The notes beneath the pieces were generated by a model, which worked only from the letters and a program-made list of their open reading frames with translations, ran no database searches and had not been told where the DNA came from. Below, piece by piece: positions 16,443 to 41,113 of a stretch of 44,916 nt of DNA (positions are counted from its first letter, which is position 1; the number at the start of each line of letters is the position of its first letter). A program made the position numbers and the translations under genes. The stretch lies in IMG/VR virus record IMGVR_UViG_3300037187_000017, positions 1-44,916 of that record. One strand, given 5' to 3'. The stretch comes from a virus.

Positions 16443-16509
16443 CGCGCCCCACTGGCTGTAGTTAGCGCCAGGATACGCCTTTATGCACTCGGGTAGAGCA
16501 AATGTCCGG

Positions 16510-19114: not shown

Positions 19115-19340
19115 TGCAGGGTCTACAGGTTTGTTCCCCTGTGTGCGCGTGTGCGCGCATGTGGGGGTAATAGAGGCGATGCTTAACAACTATGCACTGT
19201 GCATGGTGTGTATGGTCTACGGCAGTTCGACTGCTACTAGAGAAATGAAGGTCGGAATCATGCACACCATGCACTCGGCTACGCGGAGGGACGGCCCGGC
19301 TACCCGCTGCAGCCAAACCGCCCCTCCGCGCGCTATGCAC
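19115..19340. promoter_or_regulatory. Putative late-operon control region with TGCA-core inverted repeats
   Basis: The 258 bp gap between the primase/helicase and the late genes is less GC-rich than its surroundings. GTGCATGGTGTG (19199-19210) and CACACCATGCAC (19263-19274) form a perfect 12 bp inverted repeat. ATGCAC-T-GTGCAT (19192-19204) is a second palindrome, and further ATGCAC copies begin at 19260, 19269 and 19335. A run of alternating GTGTGCGCG lies at about 19138-19160. This looks like a binding array for a late activator, a packaging (pac) protein or an origin protein. I could not pick a convincing -10/-35 pair. Confidence 0.45.
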
Positions 19341-20745: not shown

Positions 20746-21365
20746 CGCGGCACTCCATTCAGGAATCGTTCCATGGCCTTCTTCGCCGCAGCCAGCCAGC
20801 GCCGGGCGTCGTCTTCTGTCTGCGCCTGGCGGGCCAGCTGGCAGCACTTGACCAGCAGCCGCCCGATCCCCGGCGGTGAGCCCATGGTGAGGATCGCCGC
20901 GGCGGGGCGAGCTTCATCCCGGTCCCATAGGTACCGGTCCCCGGCCATGTCCTCGGCCGCGTTGAGAAGCGCGTGGATCAGCGCGCGGTGGTCCGGCCCG
21001 GCCGGTTCAGCCTCTACGGGCGCGCCGTCCATCAGCGCCTTCAGCTCTCCTGCCTTCGGCCGCAGGCCCAGCTCCCTGGCCAGGGCTATGGCCGCCTTGC
21101 CGCAGGTGGCGTCCGTGTACGCCGCCCACAGCCCTACCGGGTCGTAGTTCTTCTCGCAGCCGTAGCACCACGCCGTGTTGCTGTCGTGCACCTGCATGGA
21201 GCGCTGACCGTCCTCGAACAGGTCGCCTATCGAGCAGATGGGGCAGTCTGCCCGGCCGCCGCCGTTGCGCATGCGTCCACCGGCCAGCTCTATGGCCCGG
21301 GTGATGGAGGCGGCCCCGTTCAGCCATGTGATCCGGGCTATCGTCCGGTCGTATGTGACGCTCAT
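20742..21365 (-). CDS. CHC2 zinc-finger primase subunit
   Basis: 207 residues. Residues 41-70 carry CPIC, H60 and CYGC, the zinc-ribbon spacing of DnaG-type CHC2 domains, followed by VGLWAAYT and an Ala-rich helical region. No TOPRIM acidic motifs are visible and the remaining 130 residues are helical. It is translationally coupled to the D5 helicase, so the two probably make a split primase-helicase. Where primer synthesis resides is unclear. Confidence 0.7.
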   Translation of the reverse strand: MSVTYDRTIARITWLNGAASITRAIELAGGRMRNGGGRADCPICSIGDLFEDGQRSMQVHDSNTAWCYGCEKNYDPVGLWAAYTDATCGKAAIALARELGLRPKAGELKALMDGAPVEAEPAGPDHRALIHALLNAAEDMAGDRYLWDRDEARPAAAILTMGSPPGIGRLLVKCCQLARQAQTEDDARRWLAAAKKAMERFLNGVPR

Positions 21366-25038: not shown

Positions 25039-25086
25039 CATCTGATCACCTAATCATCTGATCATCTGATCAGATGTGTGTATCAT
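25039..25086 (+). promoter_or_regulatory. Palindromic operator and promoter of the transfer operon
   Basis: CATCTGATCA occurs three times (25039, 25055, 25063), the last being part of a perfect 14 bp palindrome CATCTGATCAGATG (25063-25076). It is followed at once by TGTGTATCAT, with TATCAT (25081-25086) a good -10 box 38 bases before the first gene. Tandem sites overlapping the -35 region indicate tight repression, most simply by the ribbon-helix-helix protein encoded first in the operon. Confidence 0.6.
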
Positions 25087-25124: not shown

Positions 25125-25271
25125 GTGAAGCGAATCACGGTGGAGCTGGAAGACACGCTCCACGCGAAGCTACGTCAGGAGGCGTTCGACCGTGAGGTGG
25201 CCATGGCCGACATCGTGCGCGAGGCCCTGGAGGTCAAGCTGGCGACGAAGACCGGAGAGCCGCAGGCATGA
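25125..25271 (+). CDS. Ribbon-helix-helix regulator of the transfer operon, 48 aa
   Basis: GTG start at 25125 behind GAGGGGGAAGG. The body is KRITVELEDTLHAKLRQEA, then REVAMADIVREALEVKL, a clear CopG/Arc-type fold. As first gene after a repeated palindromic operator it is a likely autorepressor of the conjugation operon, like TraY/ArtA-type controllers. It overlaps the lipoprotein start by four bases. Confidence 0.72.
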   Translation: MKRITVELEDTLHAKLRQEAFDREVAMADIVREALEVKLATKTGEPQA

Positions 25272-25801
25272 ACGGCCGCCGGGTTGCTGGTGCCCTCGCC
25301 TCTGCCGCTCTGGCGGCTGCCGCGGTTACCGCCTGCTCCCACGCCGCTGCGCCCCCCCGGCCAGCGGCTCACCCGCCGGCCAGCACTCCGGGCATCTACG
25401 CGCTGCTCCCGTTCAGCCAGAACGAGCTGGCCCTGGCCCGCACCTCGGCCCAGCGCGCTGCTGCCGGTTACCAGACCTTCTCTTACGCCGACACTCCGCA
25501 GACCTACGAGGGCCGCCTGAGCCCGTACGTGACCGCGCAGTACGGCGCTTACCTGGAGCAGCTGTTTGGCAACCAGACAGCGACGGCTGCCCGGAACTCC
25601 GCGCACGAGAAGTCCACGGCGACCTCCGCGGTGCAGTCGATCCGCACCTTCGGGCCTACCTCAATCACCTTCGTCGTCTACATCGCCCAGCACGACCCGG
25701 ACACCAACGAGTCCGGCAGCTACGCCGTCACCGTGGCGACCACGGACGGCACCCAGTGGCAGGTCAGCGACATCGAGCCAGCAGCAGCAGGGAACTCATG
25801 A
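25268..25801 (+). CDS. Transfer-module lipoprotein (NTF2/TcpC-like C-terminal part)
   Basis: 177 residues with lipobox VTAC (Cys23) and an Ala/Pro linker. The C-terminal 110 residues are ordered as helix-rich then sheet (LARTSAQRAAAGYQTF, ITFVVYIAQHDP, SYAVTVATTDGTQWQVSDIE), resembling the NTF2-like fold of TcpC/VirB8 or Mce-associated proteins. TcpC is the wall-side scaffold component in Tn916/pCW3-type transfer systems. Overlapping ATGA junctions to both neighbours place it firmly in the operon. Confidence 0.6.
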   Translation: MNGRRVAGALASAALAAAAVTACSHAAAPPRPAAHPPASTPGIYALLPFSQNELALARTSAQRAAAGYQTFSYADTPQTYEGRLSPYVTAQYGAYLEQLFGNQTATAARNSAHEKSTATSAVQSIRTFGPTSITFVVYIAQHDPDTNESGSYAVTVATTDGTQWQVSDIEPAAAGNS

Positions 25802-26049
25802 TGCCCACTCAAAGCACCCGGCCCGAACCGGTGCAGACCTCTAAGCCCGTCCGGGCCAGGCCGGACTGGCCCACTTACCGGGGGTACCTGGGCATCGTGC
25901 TCGGCGCCCTGCTCGCGTTCGTCCTCACCGAGCGGGCGGCCGGCCTCGCCCAGCTGGTCTTCATCCTGATCTGGATCGCGCTCATCGCCGCGATCGTCAG
26001 CTTCACCAAATACGACCGGCGCCGCCGGCTTACAGGGAAGGACCGGTAA
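25798..26049 (+). CDS. Small membrane protein of the transfer operon, 83 aa
   Basis: Starts at the first of two adjacent ATGs (25798 or 25801). Hydrophilic N-terminus of about 27 residues, then two membrane segments (YLGIVLGALLAFVLT and LVFILIWIALIAAIVSF) and a basic C-terminus (KYDRRRRLTGKDR). Stop TAA overlaps the next ATG. Likely an inner-membrane accessory of the channel. Confidence 0.6.
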   Translation: MMPTQSTRPEPVQTSKPVRARPDWPTYRGYLGIVLGALLAFVLTERAAGLAQLVFILIWIALIAAIVSFTKYDRRRRLTGKDR

Positions 26050-26294
26050 TGGCCGCTAACGCTCTTGCTGCCGGATCGAGCATCGTGTCCGGGCTCGCAA
26101 CCTGGCTGACCGGCACGATAGGCACCGTTCTGCTGGTGATCATCTCAATCATGGTGGTGCGGTTCGCGGTCTCCCGCCGGTTCATGGAGCTGGGCGGCTT
26201 CCTCGTGCTCGCCGTCGTCGTCTTCCTCGTGTTCTTCCACCCCACGATCCTGGAGAACATCGCGGGCGAGATCGCTTCTGCGATGGGTGCCTGA
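26049..26294 (+). CDS. VirB2-like (pilin-type) small membrane protein, 81 aa
   Basis: 81 residues with two hydrophobic helices (GTIGTVLLVIISIMVVRFAV, and GGFLVLAVVVFLVFF), small polar loop and amphipathic ends. Size and two-helix layout are those of VirB2/TrbC pilins, although there is no clear signal-peptidase site, and many Gram-positive systems have such a protein without making a pilus. It precedes the TcpE/VirB3-like gene, as virB2 precedes virB3. Confidence 0.55.
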   Translation: MAANALAAGSSIVSGLATWLTGTIGTVLLVIISIMVVRFAVSRRFMELGGFLVLAVVVFLVFFHPTILENIAGEIASAMGA

Positions 26295-26296
26295 CC

Positions 26297-26935
26297 ATGG
26301 AACTCCCCACCTACACCGGCATCTGGAAGACGAAGCGGATCTTCTACAAGATCGAGGACATCAAGCTGCCCATGCCGGTGCCTGCCGACGTGCTGCTGAT
26401 GACCGCGGTCTGCTTCGCCGTCTGGGATCTGGTCTGGTGGGGAGCCATCGGGACTGCGCCGTTCAAGGCGGCGTTCGGGCCCAATGCCTGGTTCGCGGTC
26501 GCGTTCTGCTGGTACGCCCTGCCGCCGTTCTTTGCCGCCCGGCTGCTGGCCCGGCCGAACCGGGAGGGCAAGAACATCATCCAGGTGGTCAAGTCCTCCG
26601 CCCGGTACGCGCTGCGGGCTCACGTGCTTGACGGGTACGTGCCGCGGCGGCAGATCAAGCTGTGGCTGCGCGCCCGGTCGGTGCAGGCCACCTCTGGCGG
26701 GAAGCGCACCCGCCGGAGCGCCGCGCCCAGCCGGGCTCCCCGGCTCCCTGGTAAGAGCCTGCGTCCCGTGGCAGCCCGGCTCCGGGCACTGGGCGGCTGG
26801 GTTGTGCGGTGCCCAGGCCGCGCCGTTATGGCTCTTTTCTGCGAGGAGGACCTGGCGTCTTGTGTACGGCATCTGCTGGTCGGCGAGCGCACCCCGGATG
26901 AGGAGGAGGAAGGGTATGAAGACCCCACAGCGTAA
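26297..26935 (+). CDS. TcpE/VirB3-like conjugal transfer membrane protein
   Basis: 212 residues. The opening MELPTYTGIWKTKRIFYKIEDIKLPMPV matches the N-terminal signature of TcpE-family proteins; two membrane helices follow (PADVLLMTAVCFAVWDLVWW, WFAVAFCWYALPPFF). The last 100 residues are basic then acidic and overlap the VirB4 start. TcpE is the VirB3 counterpart and partner of the VirB4-like ATPase. Its order before virB4 is that of Tn916/pCW3. Confidence 0.75.
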   Translation: MELPTYTGIWKTKRIFYKIEDIKLPMPVPADVLLMTAVCFAVWDLVWWGAIGTAPFKAAFGPNAWFAVAFCWYALPPFFAARLLARPNREGKNIIQVVKSSARYALRAHVLDGYVPRRQIKLWLRARSVQATSGGKRTRRSAAPSRAPRLPGKSLRPVAARLRALGGWVVRCPGRAVMALFCEEDLASCVRHLLVGERTPDEEEEGYEDPTA

Positions 26936-29378
26936 CAGCGTTCCCGTCTGCTATTTCGATGGTCGGGTGCTGCTCACACTCACCGATGCGTGGGCGTATT
27001 TCGTGCTGCCGCCGGTCAGCTGGGCGTTCCTGTCCGACTCCGAGAACGAGCAGCAGATCGCGTCGGCCGCTTCCGCGTACGCGAACCTGCGAGCGCCGGA
27101 GGTGGAGCGGGCGAAGCTGACCGCTTTGTGGGAGGCCGCGAAGACCAGCAAGCTCTCGCCGGTAGCGGAGCTGCACATACGGACGGCCTGCAAGCGGCAC
27201 TCTGCGCAGGCGTGGGCGCGGCAGCTCGCAGCCTCCGGCCCGGCCACCCCGGGCTTCAACCGCCACCTGTCGCGGGTACTCGACGTGATCTCCGCCAGGG
27301 CCTACTGGGAGAAGGTCACCTACCTGGGAGTCCGGCTCGGTGCCCGGAAGCCTGGCCAGCTGATAGCCAGCCCCGGTTCGAGCGAGATCGCCAAGTGGGC
27401 GAACCTGGCCCACGGTGCCGGTATCACGCTTGGCGGTTCTGAGCTGCATGCCCGCCCCGCGGCCGCTGCTGAGATGGCCTGGCTTATCAGGCACACCAGC
27501 CAGGGCTCTTACCGGGACCTGGCGGCGCTGCCGCGGCTGTCCGCCTATGGCCCTGGCGACGTCGCAGAGCTGATGGACGCCACGCTGACCGAGAGCCGGA
27601 CGTCGCTTGCCCGTACCGCCGCCGGGAAGACCGAGCACACCACCGTACTCACCTTTGCCGGGTTCCCGAAGACCATGACCTACCCGAACGGTGGGCCGCC
27701 GTGGGCCGACCTGGCCGACTGGGCGTCCAATCCGGCGTTCCCGGCCGAGTACTCCGCGCGAATCAGGCTGATGGACCCCCAGCAGGTGGACAAGGACATC
27801 CGGCACAAGCTGATCAGCATTGACGAGGAGGCCGGCCACACAGCGTCCGCCGGCGCCCGGGTGCCGCTGGCGCTTCAGGAGCGGGTGACTGACGCGCAGA
27901 TGCTCCAGCACGCCCTGGCGACTACAGGCGACCCGGTGGCCTACGCTACCCACCGGCTGGTGATCACCGCCCCCGACGAGGGCGTCTGCAGGGACCGGGG
28001 CCGTGCGGTGACCGAGTACTGCAACCGGACGGGAATCAAGCTGGTCCGGCAGTCCTGTGACCAGCTTCCCCTGTACGCCGAGACGCTGCCGGGCGGCGCA
28101 CCGCGGCCCGCGCTGCACATGCAGCAGCAGCCGATGACCACCATTGCCGGGGGCATGCCGCAGGCCGCCGAGACGCTGGGTGACGGGACCGGGCCGTACC
28201 TGGGCACCGCCAAGACCCAGACCGCCAGCTCGGTGCACTGGAGCCCGTTCACCGCAGCGCGCCAGGATGACCCGACCGTTGCTGCGATCCTCGGTGAGCC
28301 CGGCGGCGGCAAGTCCTACCTCACGGGCCGGATCTGCCTGGACTCTGCGGTCACCCTCAACGCCACCGTCGTGATCATCGACCCGATCAAGAAGGAGATG
28401 CGCCAGCTGGCCCCGCTGCTCCGCCGGGCCGGGCGGCCGGTCAACGTGATCGCCATTGACGAGAGCCATCCTGGCCTGCTGGACCCGTTCCGGTTTGGCG
28501 GCCTCATGGGCGACAAGATCCAGCGCGCTGCTGAGGTGCTGATGATGCTGCTCCCGGACACGGTGGGAGACGCGGAGAAGGCATCCCGCCACGGCGCGGT
28601 GCTGCGAGCGGTGGATGCGGTCGCCGCCGCTCCTGACCCCTCGCTGCGCAAAGTGATCGACTGGCTCCGCAACGAGTCAGACGTCCGCCAGGGCGACGGC
28701 ACCAGGATCGAGGAGAACCTGGCCACCGAGCTCAACGTGATGTCCCGGATGCCGCTCGGCTCCCTGTGCTTCGCATCGGGGAACGCCGAGACCCTGGACA
28801 TCATGGGCCAGACCACCATCCTGACCTTCAGCGGCCTGGACCTGCCGTCCGCGACCACCGCGCCGGGGGCATACCGGATGGCTGAGCGGCTGTCCATCGC
28901 GCTGTACTACCTGGCCACCGAGCTGGTCCGCGGGCTGTTCGCCGCTGACCGGTCACTGCCGAAGCTGCTGGCGGTGGACGAGGCGTGGGCGCTGACCCGC
29001 GTCTCCCAGGGATCGCAGCTGATCGAGGCGACCAGCCGGATGGGACGCTCCCACAACATCGCCATGCTGCTCGCCTCCCACAACGTGGCCGACCTCCTGG
29101 ACGAGCGGATCACCGGGTGCATCTCCACCACCTTCGCCGTCCACTCCCGCGCTGACCGTGAGGTGTGCGCCGTGTTCCGGCAGCTGGGCATCGGCGACAC
29201 CCCCGGCAACCGCACCCGGCTCGGGGACCTGAAGACCGGTGAGGTAATCATGCGCGACCTGGCGGGCCGGATCGGCGTCGTGCAGGTCGATGACGGCGGC
29301 CCGGAGTTCATGGCCGGCATGGACACCAACCCGACGCGGTTCCGCGAGGCTGAGCGCGAGCTGGAGCGTGTGTCGTGA
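26916..29378 (+). CDS. VirB4-like conjugation ATPase (TcpF/Orf16 type)
   Basis: 820 residues from ATG 26916, with GGAGGA seven bases upstream and 20 bp inside the TcpE end; longer frames are shadow. The N-terminal 400 residues match the poorly conserved VirB4 N-domain (WAYFVLPPVSWAFL at the start). The AAA+ core has Walker A GEPGGGKS at 460-467 and Walker B LLAVDEAW at 684-691, with the intervening DPIKKEMRQLAPLL and the late SHNVADLLD motif typical of VirB4/TraC/TrbE. It would power assembly and substrate transfer in the cytoplasm-facing membrane complex. Confidence 0.85.
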   Translation: MKTPQRNSVPVCYFDGRVLLTLTDAWAYFVLPPVSWAFLSDSENEQQIASAASAYANLRAPEVERAKLTALWEAAKTSKLSPVAELHIRTACKRHSAQAWARQLAASGPATPGFNRHLSRVLDVISARAYWEKVTYLGVRLGARKPGQLIASPGSSEIAKWANLAHGAGITLGGSELHARPAAAAEMAWLIRHTSQGSYRDLAALPRLSAYGPGDVAELMDATLTESRTSLARTAAGKTEHTTVLTFAGFPKTMTYPNGGPPWADLADWASNPAFPAEYSARIRLMDPQQVDKDIRHKLISIDEEAGHTASAGARVPLALQERVTDAQMLQHALATTGDPVAYATHRLVITAPDEGVCRDRGRAVTEYCNRTGIKLVRQSCDQLPLYAETLPGGAPRPALHMQQQPMTTIAGGMPQAAETLGDGTGPYLGTAKTQTASSVHWSPFTAARQDDPTVAAILGEPGGGKSYLTGRICLDSAVTLNATVVIIDPIKKEMRQLAPLLRRAGRPVNVIAIDESHPGLLDPFRFGGLMGDKIQRAAEVLMMLLPDTVGDAEKASRHGAVLRAVDAVAAAPDPSLRKVIDWLRNESDVRQGDGTRIEENLATELNVMSRMPLGSLCFASGNAETLDIMGQTTILTFSGLDLPSATTAPGAYRMAERLSIALYYLATELVRGLFAADRSLPKLLAVDEAWALTRVSQGSQLIEATSRMGRSHNIAMLLASHNVADLLDERITGCISTTFAVHSRADREVCAVFRQLGIGDTPGNRTRLGDLKTGEVIMRDLAGRIGVVQVDDGGPEFMAGMDTNPTRFREAERELERVS

Positions 29379-30058
29379 TCGGCCAGCTGAAGGCCCGCCT
29401 GCCGAAGCTCGCGGCAGGGCTGGCGCTTGCCACCGTCGCTGCCGTGACCGGGCGGATCTCCTACACCCACATCTACAGCCTGACGCTCGCGCTGCATCAG
29501 CCGCACATGGTCGCCGTACTGATGCCGTTCGGTGTGGACGGCCTCATGGTGGTTGGCTCCGTCATCCTGCTGGATGCCACGGAGGTTGACTGGTGGCTCG
29601 GCTGGCTGGGCGTCGGCCCGGGTGCGGCGGTCAGCCTCTTCGCCAACGTGGAGTCCGGTATCAAGTACGGCTGGCTGGCCGCCGCGTGGGCTGGTGTTCC
29701 TGCCGTCGCGTTCGCGCTGTCCACCTTCATGCTGGAGCGCTGGCTGAAGGCGCAGGCGGCCAAGCCTGCTGCCGCCCTCGCTGAGGTGCCTGCATCTGAG
29801 CCCGCATCTGCTCCGAGTGCAGAGCTGGATGCACCGGATGCAGAGCTGGATGCACCGGATGCGCTTGCACCCGATGCACTCCCCGCCGCATCCAATGGCC
29901 ACAGCGCGGATGCACACCGGGTGCAGCAGGAGTGCAGCGGAGATGCAGTGCCCTCGCTGCGGAAGATCCAGGCCACTCTCGAGTGCGGCCAGAAGCGCGC
30001 CACACAGGTGCAGGCCGAAGTGCGCGAGATGCGTGAACTTGCCTTGGAGGCATCGTGA
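29375..30058 (+). CDS. DUF2637/SpdB-like membrane protein with Asp-Ala repeat and HTH-like tail
   Basis: 227 residues, GTG start overlapping the VirB4 stop. About four membrane helices (residues 11-125: LAAGLALATVAAVTG, PFGVDGLMVVGSVILL, YGWLAAAWAGVPAVAF) form the DUF2637 domain found next to TraB in Streptomyces integrative plasmids, where Spd proteins promote intramycelial spread. Then an acidic Asp/Ala-rich linker with a near-perfect repeat (AELDAPDA twice) and a C-terminus RKIQATLECGQKRATQVQAEVREM that looks like a helix-turn-helix. The linker is coded with unusual GAT GCA codons (see the TGCA cluster). Confidence 0.7.
   Translation: MIGQLKARLPKLAAGLALATVAAVTGRISYTHIYSLTLALHQPHMVAVLMPFGVDGLMVVGSVILLDATEVDWWLGWLGVGPGAAVSLFANVESGIKYGWLAAAWAGVPAVAFALSTFMLERWLKAQAAKPAAALAEVPASEPASAPSAELDAPDAELDAPDALAPDALPAASNGHSADAHRVQQECSGDAVPSLRKIQATLECGQKRATQVQAEVREMRELALEAS
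29791..30012. repeat. Dense TGCA / GGATGCA motif cluster inside the SpdB-like gene
   Basis: TGCA occurs 12 times in 222 bp (29791, 29818, 29830, 29839, 29851, 29866, 29875, 29911, 29922, 29933, 29944, 30009), with GGATGC six times in one orientation or the other. The 600 bp at 28261-28860 contains none. The Asp-Ala run could be coded with GAC GCC, the normal choice in this genome, so the codon choice looks selected or recently expanded. A cis-acting DNA site just before the translocase gene is possible. Confidence 0.5.
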
Positions 30059-31827
30059 GCACTCATGACCCGTCGCGCATCCTGCTGTTCGCGCAGCACT
30101 ACCCGCTGCTGACGATGGCCGCGCTGGCCGCGGCCGGGGTGTGGATCTGCCACGAGCGGGCTGCAGGTCTGCTGAACCGCGGACCACAGAACCAGGCCAC
30201 CGCCCGCGAGTGGGCTGGCGTACTGTTCCCGTTCCCCCTCGCGCTCGCCATTGGCGGCGCTCTGCTGCGCCCGGGACTGGCACTCATCGGTGCCGCTGTG
30301 CTGCTCCCTGCCGCCGCTGTGGCGTGGCCGGCAGCTCGCCGGTACCGGAGTCGCCACCAGCTTGACCGGGCCGTCCACCAGGCTGTGCGGGACAGCGTGG
30401 GGCACCGGGAGGGAACGCCTGCCCGGAAGTACCTGTCCCTCAAGCCTGACGGGTCCGTGCGGGTCCGGCTCACGCCCGAAGCCGCCAGTCACGAGAGCAA
30501 GGTCAAGCACATCATGCACGCCGTTCCGCAGGCTGCCGGGATGGGTGAGCACGTGGTCGAGCGCGCTCTGGACGGGCGCTGCCCGGTGCTTACCTTCCGC
30601 CTCAAAGAGAAGCCTGTGCCTATCGCGCGCAAGCTGTCCATCCGGGAGATCCTGCCGAAGCTCGCGGCCTGCGCCGGTCCTAAGACGGTCGTCGTCGGTC
30701 TGGCCCGGGGCGCGTCGGCCGTAGAGATGGACTTCGCCCGCGTCGTGCACATGCTGATCAGCGCCGCCACCGGCATCGGCAAGTCCAACCTGGTGACCTT
30801 CGTGCTCATGCAGTTCCTGTTCAAGGGCGCGGTCGCCGTCATCGTGGACCCGACCGGTATCTCCTACCCGTGGGCGCAGAGCCTGCCCAACGTGTTCTAC
30901 GCCCAGGACGACGAGGACATGCGGCGGGCCTGCTACTGGATTGACCGGGAGATCAAGCGCCGCACCAGGCTCGTGAACGCCAATGCCGACATCAGCGGCT
31001 TTGTAGAGGGCGGCTTCGGCCCGGACATCATCGTCGTGCCCGACGAGAAGAACCTGGCCGAGCGCCGTCTCACCGCTGACTGGCAGGCCCGCGGCGGCAA
31101 AGGCCGTGACCCCGCGCTGCGGATTCTGGACGACGTGCACTTCGCCGGCCGGAAGATCGGCGTGCACGCCGTCATGGCGATGGTCCGGGCCGACGCGGCT
31201 GCCTCCGGTGGCGGGACCGTGCGCGGGCAGGCCGGCCTGATCGCGTTCGGCGCCTCACCTAAGTCGTCCGAGTGGAACATGCTGTTCCGCGGCGAGCCGG
31301 TCCCGGTGTGCTCGGACAACCCGGTTCCGCAGGGGCGTATGCAGATGTGCGCGCTGGGCGAGGTGCACGAGGTGCAGGTCCCGCACTGCCTGGAGGTGCC
31401 CCGTACCGCCGCTGAGCGCCCTGCCGCGATGGAGCTTGCCCGCCAGGTCAGGGACTACAGCCAGTCCGGCACTATCACCCCGGTCCCGGCGGACCTGCTG
31501 GAGTCGGCAGCCCCGCAGCCCGGTGAAGATGAAGATGAGTACGTCGATTGTGGTGCTGGCCTGGGAGAACGTCGTACTCATACTCATCGTGCTCACGAAA
31601 ACGTGACGCTGCGGGAGGCCATCGATGAAGGGCTGATCGCCGGGCTCGACCTGAGCCAGCTTCGGAACAAGACCCGCAGTGGCTTCCCGGAACCTGCCGG
31701 GGAGCGCGGGAAAGAGAAGACCTACCTCCGCCCGGCCCTCCTCGCCTGGGAAGCCCAGCGCACCGGCCAGGAGCCAGAAGCCGACATCATCCCAATCAAC
31801 CGGGTGTCCCGGAAGGAAAACGCATGA
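30055..31827 (+). CDS. FtsK/TcpA/TraB-like DNA translocase (coupling protein)
   Basis: 590 residues. Residues 15-33 and about 55-95 contain membrane helices (LLTMAALAAAGVWIC, ALAIGGALLRPGLALIG). Motor core: Walker A SAATGIGKS at 236-244 after LISAAT, Walker B IIVVPDE at 325-331. Final Arg/Gln-rich region (LRNKTRSGFPEPAGERGKEK) could contact DNA. Neighbours are those of TraB/TcpA in Gram-positive systems: it would pump DNA through the channel, as single strand with a relaxase or as double strand in the TraB manner. Overlaps both adjacent genes by four bases. Confidence 0.8.
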   Translation: MSTHDPSRILLFAQHYPLLTMAALAAAGVWICHERAAGLLNRGPQNQATAREWAGVLFPFPLALAIGGALLRPGLALIGAAVLLPAAAVAWPAARRYRSRHQLDRAVHQAVRDSVGHREGTPARKYLSLKPDGSVRVRLTPEAASHESKVKHIMHAVPQAAGMGEHVVERALDGRCPVLTFRLKEKPVPIARKLSIREILPKLAACAGPKTVVVGLARGASAVEMDFARVVHMLISAATGIGKSNLVTFVLMQFLFKGAVAVIVDPTGISYPWAQSLPNVFYAQDDEDMRRACYWIDREIKRRTRLVNANADISGFVEGGFGPDIIVVPDEKNLAERRLTADWQARGGKGRDPALRILDDVHFAGRKIGVHAVMAMVRADAAASGGGTVRGQAGLIAFGASPKSSEWNMLFRGEPVPVCSDNPVPQGRMQMCALGEVHEVQVPHCLEVPRTAAERPAAMELARQVRDYSQSGTITPVPADLLESAAPQPGEDEDEYVDCGAGLGERRTHTHRAHENVTLREAIDEGLIAGLDLSQLRNKTRSGFPEPAGERGKEKTYLRPALLAWEAQRTGQEPEADIIPINRVSRKENA

Positions 31828-33884
31828 TCCGCCGTCTTGCTCTGCTCGTCGTCGCGGTGACGCTCACCATCCTGGGTACCGCCGGGATGGCGCTCGCGTC
31901 CACGTCGGCCCCGGCCCGGCCTGCCGCGACCCCCATCACCCAGTGCAGCCAGCTCCAGTTCCTGGGACCGCAGGCGGTGGCCGCCTGCAACCTTGGACCC
32001 CCGGCGAACAGCGCAATCAGCGGCCTGCTGCATGACCTCAACCCGGCCAACCTGGTCAACGGTGCCAACAACACCTGCCAGCCAGGGGTACCGATGCCGG
32101 AGTCCGCGGCTGACTCCACGCTGCTCGCGCCCTCCCCGGTTCCGGCGGCTCAGCGGACGCTGTGGACCTCCTACGGCACGTCCGGGCTGTTCTGGGCCCC
32201 CTACAACCTGCAGTGCTCCGAGTGGGAAGACCTGCTCGGCAACAGCTGGGCCAATGGGCTGTTCACTACCGCCAAGGTGATCACCTCGGTGACGCTGACG
32301 GTGGTGCACGCCGCCACCACGCCGAACCTGCTGCGCGGAATTCAGGGCACCATCGACAAGGCGATCGTCGCTGTCGGCAACGTTGCCAGGCAGTGGATGG
32401 TGGTCATCATCCTCCTGGGCGGCGCGTACATGGCGTGGGCGCTGCTGCGCCACCGGTCCCGCGAGGTGCTCACCTCCGTCCTGCACATGGTCATCTTTGC
32501 GGTGCCTCTGCTGCTGCTGATCGCCATGCCGCAGCTGTGGACCGGCATCCCGGCGTGGGTGGTCAATACCTCCACGTCGGTGACCAGCGACATCTTCTCC
32601 ACCATGCCGAAGGTGGGCGCCAGTACTTCCTGCCTGGCCGTCCAGCCGGGCGACCCGCAGTCCGCCGGGGAAGGAGCCACCGCTGCGGACCACGGCCAGG
32701 ATGCGCTGTGGGGCTTCATGGCGTGCCGCCCGTGGCTGGCCGGGGAGTTCTCCGACCCCGCGCTCCAGACGTCTTACGGCCGGGCGCTGCTGTGGAGCCA
32801 GAGCTTCGCAGCCGGTGAGCCGCAGACCACTGCTACCGCCAGCCTGAAGGCGCAGCTGTACGGCGGGATCGACAACGAGATCAACAAGAACGACCCCGGC
32901 TCGGTGGATCTGTTCGAGGGCAACCTGTACCAGCAGCGGATGATGATCGCCACTCTCGCCATCGTCATGGATCTGGTGCTGGCGGTCCTGTTCATCGGGC
33001 TGGCGTGCACGCTGCTGTTCGCTCAGGTCGGCTTCTTCCTGCTGATGGTCGCCGCCCCGGTCTTCCTGCTGGTTGGCATGTACCCGGGCACCGCTGGCCG
33101 GGTGTTCTGCCTGCGCTGGTACGAGCGGATGCTGGGCCTGCTGGTGAAGATGGCCGTGGCCACCGTCCTGCTGACCGGGATGCTGTGGGTGTTCGGGCTG
33201 CTGGTTGGCCTGTCCAGCTCGTGGCTGATCCAGGGCCTGCTGATCGTCGGGGCCGGAGTCACCCTCATCGTCAAGCGCAAGAAGATCATCACGGGCGCGG
33301 TCACCGCCAAGGGCAGCATGGCTGCGAAGGTCACCGGCACTCCTGCCGCAGCGCAGCCCGCGCACGCCACTGCGCCGAAGCGTGCTGTGGCCGGAGCGGG
33401 TGTGCTCGGGGCAGCGGCCGGATACGAGGCCGCCCGCCACCACGCATCCCGGCCTCCGGAGCAGAGTGCATTTCACAAGACGGTGAAGGCCGGCCAGCAG
33501 GTAGCGGCGGCGTACTCCACAGGCGGTCTGTCCGCTGCGGGTGCATCCGCATCCGGGCTTGCACACGGCCAGGTGCAGAAGCGCCGGGATGCGAAGCGTG
33601 CATCCGCTGAGCAGATGCAGGCGGATGCAGCCGCGAAAGAGCAGCAGTGGCGGGATGCACTCCCCGGCAAGGTGCACCAGCAGGCTGCATCCGAGCAGCT
33701 GCGCGGGAACTTCCCGAACGGGAAGGCAGCCCCGGTGCAGTGGGAGAACCCCGACTCTGCCAGGCACCGCCGCCGGGCACAGGAGCAGCTGGACGGCCAG
33801 TTCCCGGAGTGGAAGACCGCACCTCCGCCTGAGGAGCACCACGAGAACGGCAACGGCAGCCATCAGGACCGGGAAGAGGCGTAA
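31824..33884 (+). CDS. VirB6-like polytopic membrane protein (TcpH/Orf15 type)
   Basis: 686 residues with an N-terminal signal-like segment (LLVVAVTLTILGTAGMALA, to about 26), an extracellular Cys-containing domain (residues 40-150) and about six membrane helices (around 145-165, 190-210, 220-240, 375-395, 395-420, 440-485). The topology and the long C-terminal hydrophilic domain match VirB6/TrbL proteins of Gram-positive transfer systems. The tail contains two related motifs (QLRGNFPNGKAAPVQW and QLDGQFPEWKTAPP) and many basic residues. The DNA for this tail again carries dense TGCA and GCATCC. Confidence 0.78.
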   Translation: MIRRLALLVVAVTLTILGTAGMALASTSAPARPAATPITQCSQLQFLGPQAVAACNLGPPANSAISGLLHDLNPANLVNGANNTCQPGVPMPESAADSTLLAPSPVPAAQRTLWTSYGTSGLFWAPYNLQCSEWEDLLGNSWANGLFTTAKVITSVTLTVVHAATTPNLLRGIQGTIDKAIVAVGNVARQWMVVIILLGGAYMAWALLRHRSREVLTSVLHMVIFAVPLLLLIAMPQLWTGIPAWVVNTSTSVTSDIFSTMPKVGASTSCLAVQPGDPQSAGEGATAADHGQDALWGFMACRPWLAGEFSDPALQTSYGRALLWSQSFAAGEPQTTATASLKAQLYGGIDNEINKNDPGSVDLFEGNLYQQRMMIATLAIVMDLVLAVLFIGLACTLLFAQVGFFLLMVAAPVFLLVGMYPGTAGRVFCLRWYERMLGLLVKMAVATVLLTGMLWVFGLLVGLSSSWLIQGLLIVGAGVTLIVKRKKIITGAVTAKGSMAAKVTGTPAAAQPAHATAPKRAVAGAGVLGAAAGYEAARHHASRPPEQSAFHKTVKAGQQVAAAYSTGGLSAAGASASGLAHGQVQKRRDAKRASAEQMQADAAAKEQQWRDALPGKVHQQAASEQLRGNFPNGKAAPVQWENPDSARHRRRAQEQLDGQFPEWKTAPPPEEHHENGNGSHQDREEA
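33467..33739. repeat. Second TGCA / GCATCC-rich cluster inside the VirB6-like gene
   Basis: TGCA begins at 33467, 33542, 33560, 33574, 33599, 33616, 33626, 33656, 33673, 33686 and 33736; GGATGC/GCATCC occurs eight times. A 13 bp word GATGCACTCCCCG is shared with the first cluster (29874 and 33655). Both lie in hydrophilic, low-constraint coding regions, so the DNA may be the functional unit. Confidence 0.5.
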
Positions 33885-34945
33885 TGAAAGCCGCCGCTGC
33901 CGTCGCGGTAGCGCTGGCTGCCCTGCTCGTGCTCCCGCTGCTGGGGGTGATGTTCCTGGGTGCCCCGCCGCCGTTCATCCAGCACGGCTCATCCAGCAGC
34001 TGCGGGAAGGCCGTCACAGCCACCACCGTCTCGGTGACCACCGGGGGCGGTGGTGGCTCGCTGCCGCAAAACTGGAACGCTGTCGCGCAGTTCCTGATGT
34101 CCCATGGCTACAGCAAGAACGCGGCCGCCGGGATTGACGGGAACATCGAGTCCGAGTCCGGCGGGAACCCGGAGCAGCTCGAGATCGGAGGCGGAGGCGG
34201 CACCGGGCTTATCCAGTGGACCCCGGCCAGTTCCGCCGCCCCGCTTCAGCCGATCGTCACCGGGAATGTCAGCGCCGACCTGACCACCCAGCTGACCGAC
34301 CTGCTCGCTTACAACGCCGGGCGGGGACAGGCCGCAATCGCCACCCTCAACGCTGAGCCGACCGCCGGAGCGGCCGGTGCCTACTACGAGTCCGCGTTCG
34401 AGGCCCCGGCGAGCCTGGCCGACGCTGGCACCCGGTCGGGCAACGCCACCGCCGTGCTCACCGCGCTGGACAAGGGCACGGGCGGCGGTGGCACGGTGAC
34501 GACGGTGAGCACGACCACGCCGTGCGCCAGCCCGAAGACCGCCACGGCAGGCTCAGTCACTCCCCTCGCCACCGGCAAGGCGGCGGCCGCAATCGCGTAT
34601 GCGAAGCAGCAGCTCGGCAAGCCGTACCTGTTTGGCGGCACCGGCCCGGATGCGTTCGACTGCTCCGGCCTGGTGATGATGGCCTGGCGGGCCGCTGGCG
34701 TGGACATCCCCCGGACATCGGAGGCTCAGTACGCCGCGCTGCCGCACATCACGGCCGCACAGGCCCAGCCGGGTGACCTCATCTTCTACGCAGGCTCTGA
34801 CGGCACCCTGTCCAGCCCCGGCCACGTGGTGATGTACCTGGGCGGCGGGATGGTTATCCAGGCATTCATGACCGGCACCAACATCATGATCAACCCGCTG
34901 TCGTTCCTGACCTCCAGCGGCCTGGTGGGATACGCCCGGCCTTAA
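33884..34945 (+). CDS. Two-domain cell-wall hydrolase: lysozyme-like plus NlpC/P60 (TcpG/Orf14 type)
   Basis: 353 residues with a signal/anchor (AVAVALAALLVLPLLGVMF). The first domain (about 60-180) begins WNAVAQFLMSHGYSKNAAAG and contains NIESESGGN and GLIQWTP, the phage-tail-lysozyme (lysozyme2) pattern. The second (about 230-353) is NlpC/P60: C260 in AFDCSGLVM, H314 in GHVVMYLGG, preceded by GKPYLFGGTGPD. This exact pairing is the conserved wall hydrolase of Tn916 and pCW3. It opens peptidoglycan for the channel; it might also stand in for a phage endolysin. The start overlaps the previous stop (TAATG). Confidence 0.85.
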   Translation: MKAAAAVAVALAALLVLPLLGVMFLGAPPPFIQHGSSSSCGKAVTATTVSVTTGGGGGSLPQNWNAVAQFLMSHGYSKNAAAGIDGNIESESGGNPEQLEIGGGGGTGLIQWTPASSAAPLQPIVTGNVSADLTTQLTDLLAYNAGRGQAAIATLNAEPTAGAAGAYYESAFEAPASLADAGTRSGNATAVLTALDKGTGGGGTVTTVSTTTPCASPKTATAGSVTPLATGKAAAAIAYAKQQLGKPYLFGGTGPDAFDCSGLVMMAWRAAGVDIPRTSEAQYAALPHITAAQAQPGDLIFYAGSDGTLSSPGHVVMYLGGGMVIQAFMTGTNIMINPLSFLTSSGLVGYARP

Positions 34946-35019
34946 CGGGTGCCGGTCCCCGCGCGTCGGGCCGTGCAGCTCTCCAGCTCAGCGATCCGGA
35001 GCTCCAGGTCTTCGCTCAC
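34942..35019 (-). pseudogene. 25-codon remnant or micro-ORF at the phage/transfer-module junction
   Basis: GTG at 35019 overlaps the minor-tail stop (GTGA). The peptide begins VSEDLELRIAELESC, a coiled-coil start typical of small phage proteins after the tail genes, but stops after 25 codons in TTAA, the same four bases that end the hydrolase gene on the other strand. It may be a real micro-protein or the head of a phage gene cut when the transfer operon was inserted. This also marks the convergent end of both operons; no strong terminator hairpin is visible in the gap. Confidence 0.4.
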
Positions 35020-38000
35020 GCCACTCCGTTGGACGTGACAGTGGCGGTGATGTTGCCGGGGACGTAGTAGGGGATAGTGCTCCAGGGCGTTTCAGGTACG
35101 CAGTTGAGGGTGATGGTCCATATCCCTGACGGTCCCAGGTTCTCGCTGTACCCCCAGACCAGCTGGTTGATGGGGGCACCTCCGGACAGGAACGAAGGCG
35201 TCGCGGATATCTGCAGGAAGTCGCCTATCCGCATCGACGGGATGGCCGCGAACAGCAGCGCGACTTCAGGCCGGGCCATGTCGAACTGGATGCCCGGGTA
35301 CCTGTACTCGCTTACCCCGCCGACGCCCAGCAGGAATGCCGCGACCTCCGCGACAAAGGAATCATTGATTATGTTGATGGCCCGGGTCTGCTGGTAGCCG
35401 GTGCCGACGCCGGCAGGCGGGTCCAGGATTGACCGCGCGCCCGTGACCAGTACTGCCTCGATCGCGTAGCCGTCGTAGTTGGTCACGATGACGTCGTTTT
35501 TTATCAGCTGGTCGTCAAAGGCCGGCGTCAGGGCTCCGGCCAGCGCGCCTGACGTATAGCTCACCGACACCAGAGGATTCTGGAGCTGCATGGAAGCCTG
35601 GGTTCGGTAGCCGATCCCCATCTGGTCCCGGCACTCGTACAGCAGCCCGCAGTCGGAGTTCTCGATGGTCTGGAGAACAGCGGTGATCGTCCCGTCCACC
35701 TGCGGGCCCATCTCAACCCCGCCCGTATTGCCCTGGAGCGTGTCTATGACTTCGTAGGCGATGCCCTGCTCGGTGCACAGCCGCTCAAACCGGGGTACCG
35801 CGTACTCGCCTATGTTGCCGCCCATCGCTATCGACGCAGGACCCATATCTAGCGTGAAGTTGCTGACAGACAGGTGGCCGACTGCCGTGTCTACCAGCTC
35901 CCCGGCCCCGTTGAACTCGATGAAATAGACGCCCTCGACGGTACCGCCGCCATCGACAGCGAAAGAAATGTACTCCAGGGCGGTATTGGAGTTCGCCTCT
36001 ATGGTCTGGATGAGCACTGCAAGGCCGCTCCCGTAGTTGTACACCTGCATTGACAGGTAGACGGGCAGGCCGCTGTAGTCAAACTCCAGCCCTGCGTTGA
36101 ACAGCAGGCCAGCCCCGGTACCGCCAGTGCTGGACTGGTTGCTGTACCCGTAGAACCGCAGGCCGCCGTTGTCCTGGATGTAGCACTGGAACGAGGCCAC
36201 CGTCCCGGTGCTCTGCACGTTGACGAGGCCCACCTGGGGCTGGCCGACAGACTGGAATCGGGAGTTAACTCCGCTGTCGTTGCCTGCCGGGATGCTGAGC
36301 AGGAACCGGGCTGCGATGCTTGCCGGATTTTGCTGCTCGTAGGTGGGGAAGAAGGAGAACGAGCTGCCGTTGAACGCAGGCAGCGCGTTGGAGCCCGGGA
36401 ACGCCGTGTTTGAGGCAAACGACGGGGTTGTCACGGGGGACTCGTTCGCCCAGGTTCCCGGAGTATTGCTGAGGTCAAAGCCGCCTTCTGTGATTTCGCC
36501 TACCGGCAGGAAACTGGCGAAGCTCATAGATCCGGTGGCGTCTTCCATCGGCCAGTAAGCTATCGGGGCCACGCCCTCCTGGACAAGATTGATCGTGTGG
36601 TACCTGCGGAATGCGCTGCCGATTGGCGTGGTGGCCTGGGAAAGCCGCCGCCAGATCCCGGATACGGTGACCTGCGCATAGATGTCGCTCTGGGTTGGAT
36701 CCCAGGCCAGCGGCCACTCGCTTATCTCGCCCCAGAAGCGGTAGCCGGAGTAGAGGGTCAGGCTCGCCGATTCGGAGTTCACCGCGATCCGCAGCTCGGT
36801 GTTCAGGCCGAGGTACGGATAGTAGACACCGGCCGGGTTGAGCGGCGAGAAGCGGCCGTCCCGGTTGTCCAGGGTCAGCGTCATCTGGCTGGCCTGGATG
36901 CTGCTCTGCTCGTTCGAGCGGCCCATGCCTGTGATGGCGATCGGGTCGCGCTGGTAGACGTAATCAGTGATGTCCACCCAGTTCCCGTTGACCATCAGAT
37001 CCACCACGATGCCCAGCGGCTTCTCAGGGAAAGGCGCGTAGAACGCGACCCCGGTCCCGCCCTGAACGCTGACCGGGGCAGCCGACCCGGCCACGTTGGT
37101 AACACCGGCCGCTGTACCAGCGCCTCCGGCCACGGTCACCGATGCCGCTGTCCCGATGACCGCCGCACCGTACGGCGCCCCCAGCGCGAACGTGGCGATG
37201 CACGCCTCATAGTTGCTGGCACTGCCGAACGTCCCCGAGTAGGTGGCCACTCCCGTAGCGTGCGCGCCCTGGTAGCCGCTGATGGCCGCATTGGCCTCAG
37301 CAGGCTCGTTCAGCCATGGCGTGCTGGGGCCGGCAATCGAGCTCGGGCTGCTCTGGCCGTAGACCACGCCCACCCAGAACTCGGCACTGTAGAGGGTCGC
37401 GGCGGTGGAGACTGTAAACGTGGTGCCGCCTGACGTGACGCGGGCGGTCGCCACCTGGTCCAGGAGGATCGGGCCGGGCACCTCGTAGGCGTACAGGGCA
37501 GCAGCCCCGGAGGCCAGAGAAATCGTGGCCCCCGGGCTGGCTCCGACACCGGAGTAGTAGTAGATCCAGGTGTAGCCGCCCGCGCTGATCTCGGCGAGGC
37601 TCAGCACCTGCCCGTTGCCCGCGAGGGTGACCGGGGGAGTTGCCCCGGTGGGCCGGGACATGGCGAGGATAACGCTGTTGCCCGGCGTGATCGGATTCGG
37701 GAATGTGATGGCGCCTGCGTTGAGCACCGGCACGGCGATCTGGACGATGCCGTTGGATACTGTCTGCCCGGTGCCCCCGGCCGCGGCCACGTTCGCCGCG
37801 ACACCGATGACTGCTGCCGCCGCGCCGCCTGGCGCCGCTTCCATCAGCAGGAGTGCGGCGTCCTCAGAGAACAGGTTGCCTCCCACCTCGTCGGTGAGGG
37901 GTATGGACGCGGCAGTCGCCCCCGTGCCGCCCTGGGCCGTGACGGGAGCCGCCACCCCGCGGACGCTGGCAGGTGCCACCTGAGCCACCCAGATGCCCGC

Positions 38001-39335
38001 ATAGGCGCCTGCCGCGGCGTTCGACTCCACCAGCGGAGTCCAGGTCAGGCCGCTACTGTCGGCCAGGGCCATCGTGATGACGCCGCCCGGCAGGTAGTTG
38101 GAGTTGCACACCACCGAGGCGACCAGCAGCGAGCCGGTGGGAGCCCCCGAGGGGAAGATCGCGGTCTGCTGGACATTCGGTGTGGTGAAGTCCTCGGGGT
38201 TTTCCCCGAGCGCGGTGAGCGTCTTCGTCACCGATATGCCGCTGCCCGCCAGGATCTCGGCCATCGCGTAGTTGACCCGCGTGTTCGACGGAGCGGAGGC
38301 GCCGAGGAAGACCGCGCCGCCGCTGTGCGACACCAGGGACGTGGAGTGGAATGTGCCGTAGGCCGCCAGGTTCACCGCGTCGTAGACGTTCTGGCTGAAG
38401 GTGGTGGCGCCGGTCGGTGTATAGGTGGTTCCCGGCTGCCACTCCATCAGCGCGCCGGTCAGCCGCGAGTTAGTGCCGTTGGGTGTGATGGAGTAGTTCG
38501 GCAGGTCTGAGGCACCGCCGGAGTAGGCGGCGAAGGTCTGGGCGCCCGCCAGGATCGACGCCACCGACGCTGCTCCAGCCAGGGCCTCAACCGTCAGGGC
38601 CATGCCGATCGTGGGGACGCCCTGGTACCCGGTGGTGCCGGTGGTGCCCAGGACCCCGCCGCCCGCGGTCGCGGTGATGGCCATTGCTGCTGACGGCACG
38701 GGGATCGTCAGGACCAGGAACCCGGTGTAGAAGGTGGAGCTTTCCTGGCTGGTGATCACCGGGTTGGAGGTGGGCCCGGTGTATTCGCACAAGCCGACGC
38801 AGGTGGCCTGGTAGCCGCCGCCGATCGAGTTGTCCGGGCCGATCGGCGGGATGACCGTAGTCCAGGTGGCGGGCAGGGTCTCGGTGTGCAGGCCGGACGT
38901 GAACCCGCTCGCCCCGTAGTCGATGCCCCCGGCGAGCAGCACCACCGTCTGGCCGGAGGTCACCCCGCCCGGGAACGTGGGGCTGTAGGTGACAACCCCG
39001 CCACTGCTGTTTGAGAACGAGCTGGCCGCTACCGTGGCCGGGGGATAGGCAGCCACCGTGACAACCGCGACACAGGTGCCGCTGAAGGTGACCGTGTACG
39101 CGCTCTCGCTGCCCGCGGTCTTGGTGAAGACCCCGAACGGCGCGGACCCTGCAGACTTCGCGGACCAGCCGGACGGCGTTGACGGGTACACCGTGCCAGC
39201 GGACGGCACGCCACCGAACGCGCACATGACCAGCAGGTCGCCGGAGTTGTACGCCGGAGGCGGCTGTACGGTTACGGTCGTCGCAGTCCCGGTCTGCGGT
39301 GTGGCCCCGAAGCTCCAGGACAGCGCGTTGGTCAT
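35016..39335 (-). CDS. Large minor tail protein (tip/fibre-like) with shared 22-residue repeats
   Basis: 1439 residues starting at ATG 39335 (TGATG overlap). The N-terminal 440 residues are beta-rich decoration-type domains (SGDLLVMCAFGGVPSAG, VVTVAAYPPATV). Four copies of the repeat of the 2929-6255 protein occur at about residues 450-760 (VRGVAAPVTAQGGTG, VIGVAANVAAAGGTG, GTAASVTVAGGAGTAAG, GSAAPVSVQGGTG). The C-terminal half begins VDLMVNGNWVDITDYVYQRD and includes LTLDNRDGRFSPLNP, typical of actinophage distal/minor tail proteins, with a probable lectin-like insert. It likely contacts the cell surface. Confidence 0.75.
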   Translation of the reverse strand: MTNALSWSFGATPQTGTATTVTVQPPPAYNSGDLLVMCAFGGVPSAGTVYPSTPSGWSAKSAGSAPFGVFTKTAGSESAYTVTFSGTCVAVVTVAAYPPATVAASSFSNSSGGVVTYSPTFPGGVTSGQTVVLLAGGIDYGASGFTSGLHTETLPATWTTVIPPIGPDNSIGGGYQATCVGLCEYTGPTSNPVITSQESSTFYTGFLVLTIPVPSAAMAITATAGGGVLGTTGTTGYQGVPTIGMALTVEALAGAASVASILAGAQTFAAYSGGASDLPNYSITPNGTNSRLTGALMEWQPGTTYTPTGATTFSQNVYDAVNLAAYGTFHSTSLVSHSGGAVFLGASAPSNTRVNYAMAEILAGSGISVTKTLTALGENPEDFTTPNVQQTAIFPSGAPTGSLLVASVVCNSNYLPGGVITMALADSSGLTWTPLVESNAAAGAYAGIWVAQVAPASVRGVAAPVTAQGGTGATAASIPLTDEVGGNLFSEDAALLLMEAAPGGAAAAVIGVAANVAAAGGTGQTVSNGIVQIAVPVLNAGAITFPNPITPGNSVILAMSRPTGATPPVTLAGNGQVLSLAEISAGGYTWIYYYSGVGASPGATISLASGAAALYAYEVPGPILLDQVATARVTSGGTTFTVSTAATLYSAEFWVGVVYGQSSPSSIAGPSTPWLNEPAEANAAISGYQGAHATGVATYSGTFGSASNYEACIATFALGAPYGAAVIGTAASVTVAGGAGTAAGVTNVAGSAAPVSVQGGTGVAFYAPFPEKPLGIVVDLMVNGNWVDITDYVYQRDPIAITGMGRSNEQSSIQASQMTLTLDNRDGRFSPLNPAGVYYPYLGLNTELRIAVNSESASLTLYSGYRFWGEISEWPLAWDPTQSDIYAQVTVSGIWRRLSQATTPIGSAFRRYHTINLVQEGVAPIAYWPMEDATGSMSFASFLPVGEITEGGFDLSNTPGTWANESPVTTPSFASNTAFPGSNALPAFNGSSFSFFPTYEQQNPASIAARFLLSIPAGNDSGVNSRFQSVGQPQVGLVNVQSTGTVASFQCYIQDNGGLRFYGYSNQSSTGGTGAGLLFNAGLEFDYSGLPVYLSMQVYNYGSGLAVLIQTIEANSNTALEYISFAVDGGGTVEGVYFIEFNGAGELVDTAVGHLSVSNFTLDMGPASIAMGGNIGEYAVPRFERLCTEQGIAYEVIDTLQGNTGGVEMGPQVDGTITAVLQTIENSDCGLLYECRDQMGIGYRTQASMQLQNPLVSVSYTSGALAGALTPAFDDQLIKNDVIVTNYDGYAIEAVLVTGARSILDPPAGVGTGYQQTRAINIINDSFVAEVAAFLLGVGGVSEYRYPGIQFDMARPEVALLFAAIPSMRIGDFLQISATPSFLSGGAPINQLVWGYSENLGPSGIWTITLNCVPETPWSTIPYYVPGNITATVTSNGVA

Positions 39336-41109: not shown

Positions 41110-41113
41110 TGAC

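Follow-up and report, generated by a model that had tools for sequence, protein, structure and literature searches.

The locus examined here, positions 25125-34945 of the IMG/VR virus record IMGVR_UViG_3300037187_000017, raises the question of whether genes for a conjugation-type channel belong to the siphovirus in which they are found and, if so, what they would do for it. The window, i.e., the stretch of DNA that was analysed, is the whole record, with a length of 44,916 bp and no end repeats. The analyses support the assignment of the operon to the MPF_FA/pCW3 type of T4SS and its status as a real part of the phage genome. With a probability of roughly 0.55, we propose that this temperate siphovirus carries a resident DNA-export machine that would carry double-stranded phage DNA from one cell or hyphal compartment to another independently of the virion.

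Gene map of the phage and its T4SS operon

The window contains the gene set of a temperate member of the Caudoviricetes (siphovirus), including the terminase, portal, HK97-type major capsid protein (MCP), tail, tape measure, and integrase. The tyrosine integrase gene of the phage (23641-24741) is located on the minus strand and is divergent from the T4SS operon; beyond it, on the same strand, are a GntR regulator, a D5-type replication helicase/primase (19333-20847), and the head genes encoding the terminase large subunit, portal, protease, and MCP (11163-17874). To the left of the MCP, a head-tail adaptor, an HNH nuclease, and a tail-terminator-like gene (1-297, assigned from a homologous contig) are also encoded on the minus strand, the last of them running off the left end of the window. 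On the other side of the operon, the minus-strand tail genes (35016-44916) begin, from right to left, with the tape measure, which the right end of the window truncates, and go on to proteins of the lectin/GH16 and A4-peptidase kinds, followed by a large tail protein. The flanks described in the initial annotation, with the integrase and head genes on one side and the tail on the other, were thus recovered. Since joining the two ends gives a normal phage gene order, we infer that the record is circularly permuted and lacks part of the tail region, a gap of ~4 kb according to the homologous contig; the missing part is present in a contig (G044) of the second phage described below. Regarding phage-plasmid traits, the integrase and the D5 helicase are present, and a ParB-like match was obtained solely inside the portal protein. 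Neither a tRNA nor a T-loop motif was found when the window was searched for an attP.

Among the other structural genes, the one at 2929-6270 contains about 16 copies of a 66-nt (22-aa) repeat. In the second phage (contig G002), a protein at the other of the two positions (2929-6270 and 35016-39335) is matched by one domain of the window's large tail protein (35016-39335), suggesting a domain exchange. A Peptidase A4 (glutamic peptidase) domain (39335-40036, Pfam 3e-17; 65% in the second phage) is located among the tail genes.

The operon is composed of ten tightly packed plus-strand genes with start/stop overlaps; it is flanked by the integrase gene and by the tail genes and is convergent with the latter. 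Nine of them had been listed before, all of which are present, and one (25798-26049) had been missed. Four 8-bp direct repeats, CATCTGAT CACCTAAT CATCTGAT CATCTGAT (25039-25070; 0 matches in 100 shuffles), immediately precede the first gene, which encodes a ribbon-helix-helix (RHH; Arc/CopG-like) regulator (25125-25271, with a GTG start at 25125 in an ORF that opens at 25074). The matches behind this label are weak (PHROG Arc-like repressor, E = 0.0015; Pfam RHH_1, E = 0.026, under the cut-off), but the repeats back it. They probably constitute the operator of the RHH regulator and could alternatively be a candidate binding site for the FtsK motor; as for a TraB-type clt, 8-bp repeats do exist, but beside the RHH gene.

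The next gene (25268-25801) encodes a product previously described as a lipoprotein, and a lipoprotein-type signal is indeed present, although the predicted fold corrects its identity to a VirB8 homologue. The AlphaFold model (pLDDT 85, 32 aligned sequences) matched DotI/IcmL, VirB8, TcpC, and TraH structures in Foldseek with E values down to 4e-5, and the profile search against the PDB returned OmamC (1.6e-5) and, weakly, TcpC (TcpC-like 3ub1, 0.05). On this predicted fold, the protein is a VirB8 subunit, namely an NTF2-like, TcpC-type subunit of the channel in the cell wall. It is followed by the gene that had been missed, whose translation is a small protein of 83 aa with two hydrophobic stretches and for which the family search gave no confident match, and by a gene (26049-26294) encoding an 81-aa protein with two TM segments. 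The earlier VirB2-like label of the latter is weak (TrbC, E = 0.16); the protein is homologous (about 30-45% identity) to the product at the same place in the chromosomal clusters described below, and that chromosomal homologue matches TcpD at E = 0.05, so that it could equally be a VirB2-like or a TcpD-like small membrane protein.

The gene encoding TcpE (VirB3-like; 26297-26935; PF12648, 6e-11) is adjacent to and upstream of the VirB4/TcpF ATPase gene (26916-29378; AAA_10, 5e-51; NCBIfam TcpF of pCW3, 3e-49; PDB VirB4 4ag5), whose start, set from the alignment, falls inside the TcpE gene and whose Walker A (GEPGGGKS) and DEAW motifs are intact. Then follows a DUF2637 membrane protein (29375-30058; PF10935, 4.9e-6), which we take to be the equivalent of Spd from its gene neighbourhood and from our knowledge of such modules. 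Its gene overlaps by 4 nt with that of an FtsK/HerA/TcpA-like DNA motor (30055-31827), composed of N-terminal TM helices, a P-loop ATPase, and a C-terminal winged-helix-like domain (about 515-570). The HerA/FtsK P-loop domain of the motor matched at 1e-5, near the Pfam cut-offs, its profile matched the structures of FtsK (7e-6) and TcpA (0.002), and its P-loop and DE motifs are conserved with its homologue; the TraG/VirD4 C-terminal domain (PF12696) had no match. The AlphaFold model of the motor, built from two sequences, is poor as a whole (pLDDT 44) and was not submitted to a fold search; within it, the C-terminal 55 residues form an H-H-E-E-H block that scored about 70-79. Given this block and an HTH_17 match (4e-4) in one homologue, the C-terminus looks like a winged helix.

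The last two genes encode a VirB6/TrbL channel protein (31824-33884; PF04610, 1e-5; NCBIfam CD3337/EF1877 family, 3e-17) and a VirB1-like wall hydrolase with lysozyme and NlpC/P60 domains (33884-34945; NlpC/P60, 5e-23; Phage_lysozyme2, 1e-19), whose membrane anchoring is read from its hydrophobic N-terminus. The matches for TcpE, AAA_10/VirB4, DUF2637, TrbL/VirB6, NlpC/P60, and Phage_lysozyme2 all exceed the Pfam curated cut-offs, and the labels TcpE, VirB4, SpdB-like, FtsK/TcpA, VirB6-like, and lysozyme-NlpC/P60 given at the outset agree with the Pfam/NCBIfam matches. The features of an MPF_FA channel found in the operon are a VirB4 of the TcpF/Orf16 kind, TcpE beside it, VirB6, a VirB8/TcpC-type subunit, and a VirB1-like hydrolase, with the FtsK/HerA P-loop protein as the coupling ATPase (VirD4 or TcpA); the DUF2637 gene would correspond to the spd-type gene that forms one unit with the motor in TraB/Spd modules.

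The operon in a second phage genome and its locus in related prophages

Searching 2.9 million viral contigs with VirB4 returned one other contig, IMGVR_UViG_3300014838_000687 (35,124 bp), which was also retrieved with the capsid protein. Its head genes resemble those of the window (MCP 77%, portal 83%), and its right end carries VirB8, VirB2/TcpD-like, TcpE, and VirB4 (74%) genes, divergent from a tyrosine integrase unlike that of the window, before the contig ends inside the DUF2637 gene. A search with VirB6 led to IMGVR_UViG_3300014838_000586 (25,187 bp), from the same metagenome, which starts in the DUF2637 gene and continues with FtsK (52%), VirB6 (76%), NlpC (70%), and convergent tail genes through the tail terminator. 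The two contigs overlap at both ends, by 71 identical bases (a 30-bp tandem repeat) and by 88 bases (a hexamer repeat), and both joins follow the arrangement of the window. The evidence that they close a ~60-kb circle, comprising the T4SS and every virion gene, is strong without being absolute, since each overlap consists of a simple repeat; the continuity of the window across both places adds backing. The 30-bp repeat that broke the assembly is an in-frame tandem repeat of the DUF2637 gene, and the repeat at the other break is the hexamer GGCTCA. A VirB4 is also present in Enterococcus phage Efs records.

The junction sought in other genomes was therefore found in a second phage from another soil metagenome, which has the T4SS at the same position as the window, an unrelated integrase, and a different replication module. 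The dN/dS pairs between the two phages were.22/.70 for VirB4,.20/.64 for VirB6,.20/.57 for NlpC,.38/.95 for FtsK, and.45/.90 for VirB8, compared with.18/.77 for the MCP,.15/.79 for the portal, and.27/1.09 for the terminase. The T4SS genes show about the same synonymous divergence as the virion genes, and most of them evolve under purifying selection, FtsK and VirB8 being faster (dN/dS about 0.4-0.5). Because the operon has a silent rate similar to that of the virion genes and is mostly constrained, it is, on this sequence evidence, old and maintained in the phage lineage, in which the integrase and replication genes have been exchanged. Phage genomes known to carry the full operon number two; the 42 other MCP-related records, many of them short fragments, have no VirB4.

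MCP homologues (43-55%) were also present in 10 of 347 Streptosporangiales genomes. The prophage was flanked by direct repeats of 30-45 bp in five of the seven contigs fetched, the repeats being tRNA-like in four, with one tRNA-Arg confirmed. Inside the att repeats of four prophages (G053, G087, G133, and G359), DUF2637 and FtsK genes lie in the interval from att to the tail end; they are convergent with the tail genes and have GntR-type regulators nearby, the DUF2637 match of G359 being under the Pfam cut-off. A weak DUF2637 match was obtained in G233 and an FtsK in G225; as the FtsK profile was made from three of these prophages, the independent matches are G359 and G225. No VirB4 was found inside these Streptosporangiales prophages. 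In G027, an IMG/VR relative, an FtsK of the same type as in the window (3e-86) occurs together with DUF2637; this relative surfaced only via the profile, a search of IMG/VR with the single FtsK sequence having given no match. Based on the pairs at the same locus in the prophages and on G027, the DUF2637-FtsK pair at the T4SS locus is a recurrent trait of this phage family, to which the lineage of the window adds the VirB channel. The tail-bearing prophages G087, G133, G053, and G359 reside mostly in tRNA genes and could be miscalled as AICEs. Streptomyces phage Dagobah, an S. coelicolor isolate (MCP 41%), encodes a short ATPase (43826-44755) related to the FtsK of the window and annotated as hypothetical.

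These comparisons bear on the origin of the arrangement. A chimeric assembly, or a prophage next to a T4SS of the chromosome, was conceivable given a single metagenomic contig and the existence of chromosomal homologues, and both had been named in advance as grounds for dismissing the locus. Neither applies, since the operon recurs with the same junctions in an independent phage genome from another metagenome; besides, in the circularly permuted map the T4SS separates the head genes from the tail genes, and the chromosomal homologues are just 37-41% identical. The second genome refutes an assembly join in practice, and we regard this explanation as negligible. There is a precedent for the insertion of an ICE into a phage genome, namely Streptococcus phage IPP61 (KY065497), in which an entire Tn916, its integrase and excisionase included, is inserted between early and late genes. 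In the window, however, no second integrase, excisionase, or relaxase accompanies the operon, the two phages have the operon in common but unrelated integrases, T4SS and virion genes have similar dS, and the position of the operon is the DUF2637-FtsK locus of other prophages. An insertion of this kind retains only a slim chance and was rejected on account of the same-locus pairs, the similar dS, and the unrelated integrases.

Chromosomal and plasmid relatives of the channel

A single-sequence VirB4 search of bacterial genomes gave no match, and an alignment-based search led to a chromosomal family. The closest chromosomal homologues (37-41% identical) belong to the Streptosporangiales, where they occur in 340 of 347 genomes and nearly always as a single copy, in clusters composed of VirB4 with TcpC-like, VirB2/TcpD-like, TcpE, VirB6, VirB8-like, and SLT/NlpC genes. 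No FtsK or DUF2637 was found within 10 kb of VirB4 in 80 such loci. In the chromosomal clusters (L063:8058-9992 and L053:7307-9862), TcpE is fused to a long Ala/Pro-rich tail, which in L063 extends to a motif resembling the MinD/ParA P-loop; Nocardiopsis plasmids have a separate MinD/ParA gene. Parts of these kinds occur on plasmids as well: those of Nocardiopsis carry TcpC, TcpE, VirB4, VirB6, and SLT genes, a Pseudonocardia plasmid carries VirB4, a C40 peptidase, and a distant FtsK homologue, and pRL2 has a DUF2637 gene followed by pRL2-11. In the VirB4 tree, the phage proteins group with those of uncultured soil Streptosporangiales (support 80/100, on a very long branch), which is suggestive of a host in this group.

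Possible function and comparison with known systems

The relaxase families Relaxase, TrwC, and Rep_trans (PF03432, PF08751, and PF02486) had no match in the window or in either contig of the second phage (G002 and G044), and Pfam searches of the larger unassigned ORFs of the window and of most larger ORFs of the two contigs revealed no relaxase. No clt or oriT was identified. As no relaxase of these families was found in either phage genome, we do not class the operon as a complete conjugative element, and of the initial description of a complete-looking Tn916/pCW3-type transfer operon, the homology of the channel stands, whereas a relaxase and an oriT are absent from the findings. This lowers the case that the operon is a conjugative module, not the case that it may work like one. 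MPF_FA systems usually operate with a relaxase (PMC12857230), and Streptomyces TraB transfers double-stranded DNA without one, via 8-bp clt repeats and accompanied by spd genes (PMC12857230, PMC3218068); TcpA is FtsK-like enough that double-stranded DNA transfer has been proposed for pCW3 (reviewed in PMC12857230). The Spd-like/FtsK pair fits relaxase-free actinomycete (TraB/Spd) transfer, so that the designation as a Tn916-type transfer operon is just partly right.

The proposed export of double-stranded phage DNA is based on the gene set and folds, the second phage genome, the similar dS, the DUF2637-FtsK pairs in prophages, the lack of a relaxase, and the TraB/TcpA precedent. In lysogens or in cells with the excised phage, an FtsK hexamer would bind phage DNA sequence-specifically through its C-terminal winged helix, like Streptomyces TraB, and would pump the double-stranded circular DNA, relaxase-free, through a channel of DUF2637, VirB6, TcpE, and VirB8. 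VirB4 would power assembly, the lysozyme-NlpC/P60 protein would open the wall, and the DNA would reach a neighbouring cell or cross a hyphal cross-wall, where the integrase would insert it. We give about even chances to the more specific proposal of a hybrid machine, in which a TraB/Spd-type double-stranded DNA motor within a VirB-type channel sends phage genomes between cells or hyphal compartments as a second, particle-free route. Two routes of spread, by virions and by a conjugation-like process, are plausible for this phage.

Other functions have to be weighed against this proposal. The operon could secrete proteins or alter the wall or surface of lysogens, e.g., in superinfection exclusion or competition, with no movement of DNA. 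The near-universal chromosomal cluster (340 of 347 genomes), with no FtsK or DUF2637 nearby in the loci inspected, suggests that a channel of this type may serve a function unrelated to DNA, and the lack of a relaxase match is in line with it; but the phage operon, unlike the chromosomal one, has a dedicated FtsK/DUF2637 DNA-motor pair, an effector-like cargo gene is not evident, and DUF2637-FtsK alone is the element common to other prophages of the family, which makes a purely secretory role unlikely. Ordinary single-strand conjugation would accord with the normal use of a relaxase by MPF_FA systems (PMC12857230), if the relaxase had diverged beyond recognition, were encoded in the segment that the window lacks, or came in trans from a host plasmid or ICE, and some small ORFs carry no assignment. 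We consider it distinctly unlikely, given that the three relaxase families are absent from the window and from a second genome whose two contigs span the whole circle, and that the Pfam searches of larger ORFs point the same way. There is a small chance that some of the operon's products serve the virion or lysis, for instance the hydrolase as an endolysin, the remainder being a decaying passenger. The hydrolase does combine a phage-tail-type lysozyme with an NlpC/P60 domain, but the second phage (G044) encodes a GH25 lysin of its own as well as wall-active domains in its tape measure, and the T4SS frames compared are intact, with dN below dS.

Judged from its genes, a phage-resident, relaxase-less T4SS of the MPF_FA channel type with a DUF2637/FtsK motor is real and unusual. 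A literature search, with most subscription journals and preprints outside its range, found no report of a T4SS resident in a phage. Phages and conjugative elements are classed by their mode of movement, and a full set of virion genes together with an export channel of its own crosses that line; phage-plasmids swap one mode of movement for the other (PMC10879196). Here, the DUF2637-FtsK pair and VirB4/VirB6 stand in one operon. If the export reading is true, the phage may spread from cell to cell without virus particles. The DUF2637-FtsK pairs in tRNA-integrated prophages suggest a wider actinophage habit that blurs the border between AICEs and prophages.

When compared to the MPF_FA T4SS of Tn916, ICEBs1, and pCW3, the phage operon has in common TcpE, VirB4/TcpF, VirB6, VirB8, and NlpC/P60 homologues and an FtsK-like (TcpA-like) coupling ATPase, and differs in having no relaxase or oriT found, in its Spd-like DUF2637 gene, and in being resident in a phage with no ICE excision genes of its own. 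The order logic of Tn916 claimed for it does not hold, as VirB8 comes first and DUF2637-FtsK is located between VirB4 and VirB6. In Streptococcus phage IPP61, T4SS genes are also inside a phage record, but there they belong to a complete foreign ICE that has an integrase of its own. The Streptosporangiales chromosomal cluster contains homologous VirB2/TcpD-like, TcpE, VirB4 (37-41%), VirB6, VirB8-like, and NlpC/P60 genes and, unlike the phage operon, a TcpC-like gene, a long TcpE fusion, another gene order, and no FtsK/DUF2637 nearby. Prophages G053, G087, G133, and G359 share their virion gene family with the window phage and carry the DUF2637-FtsK pair at the same locus in the same orientation, but have another FtsK subtype and no VirB4 channel. 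Finally, in the Streptomyces TraB/Spd modules (AICEs and the linear plasmid pRL2), DUF2637 is followed by the FtsK/HerA motor, as in the phage operon, and a relaxase is not needed; those systems are devoid of VirB channel genes, whereas the phage embeds the DUF2637-FtsK pair in a T4SS operon.
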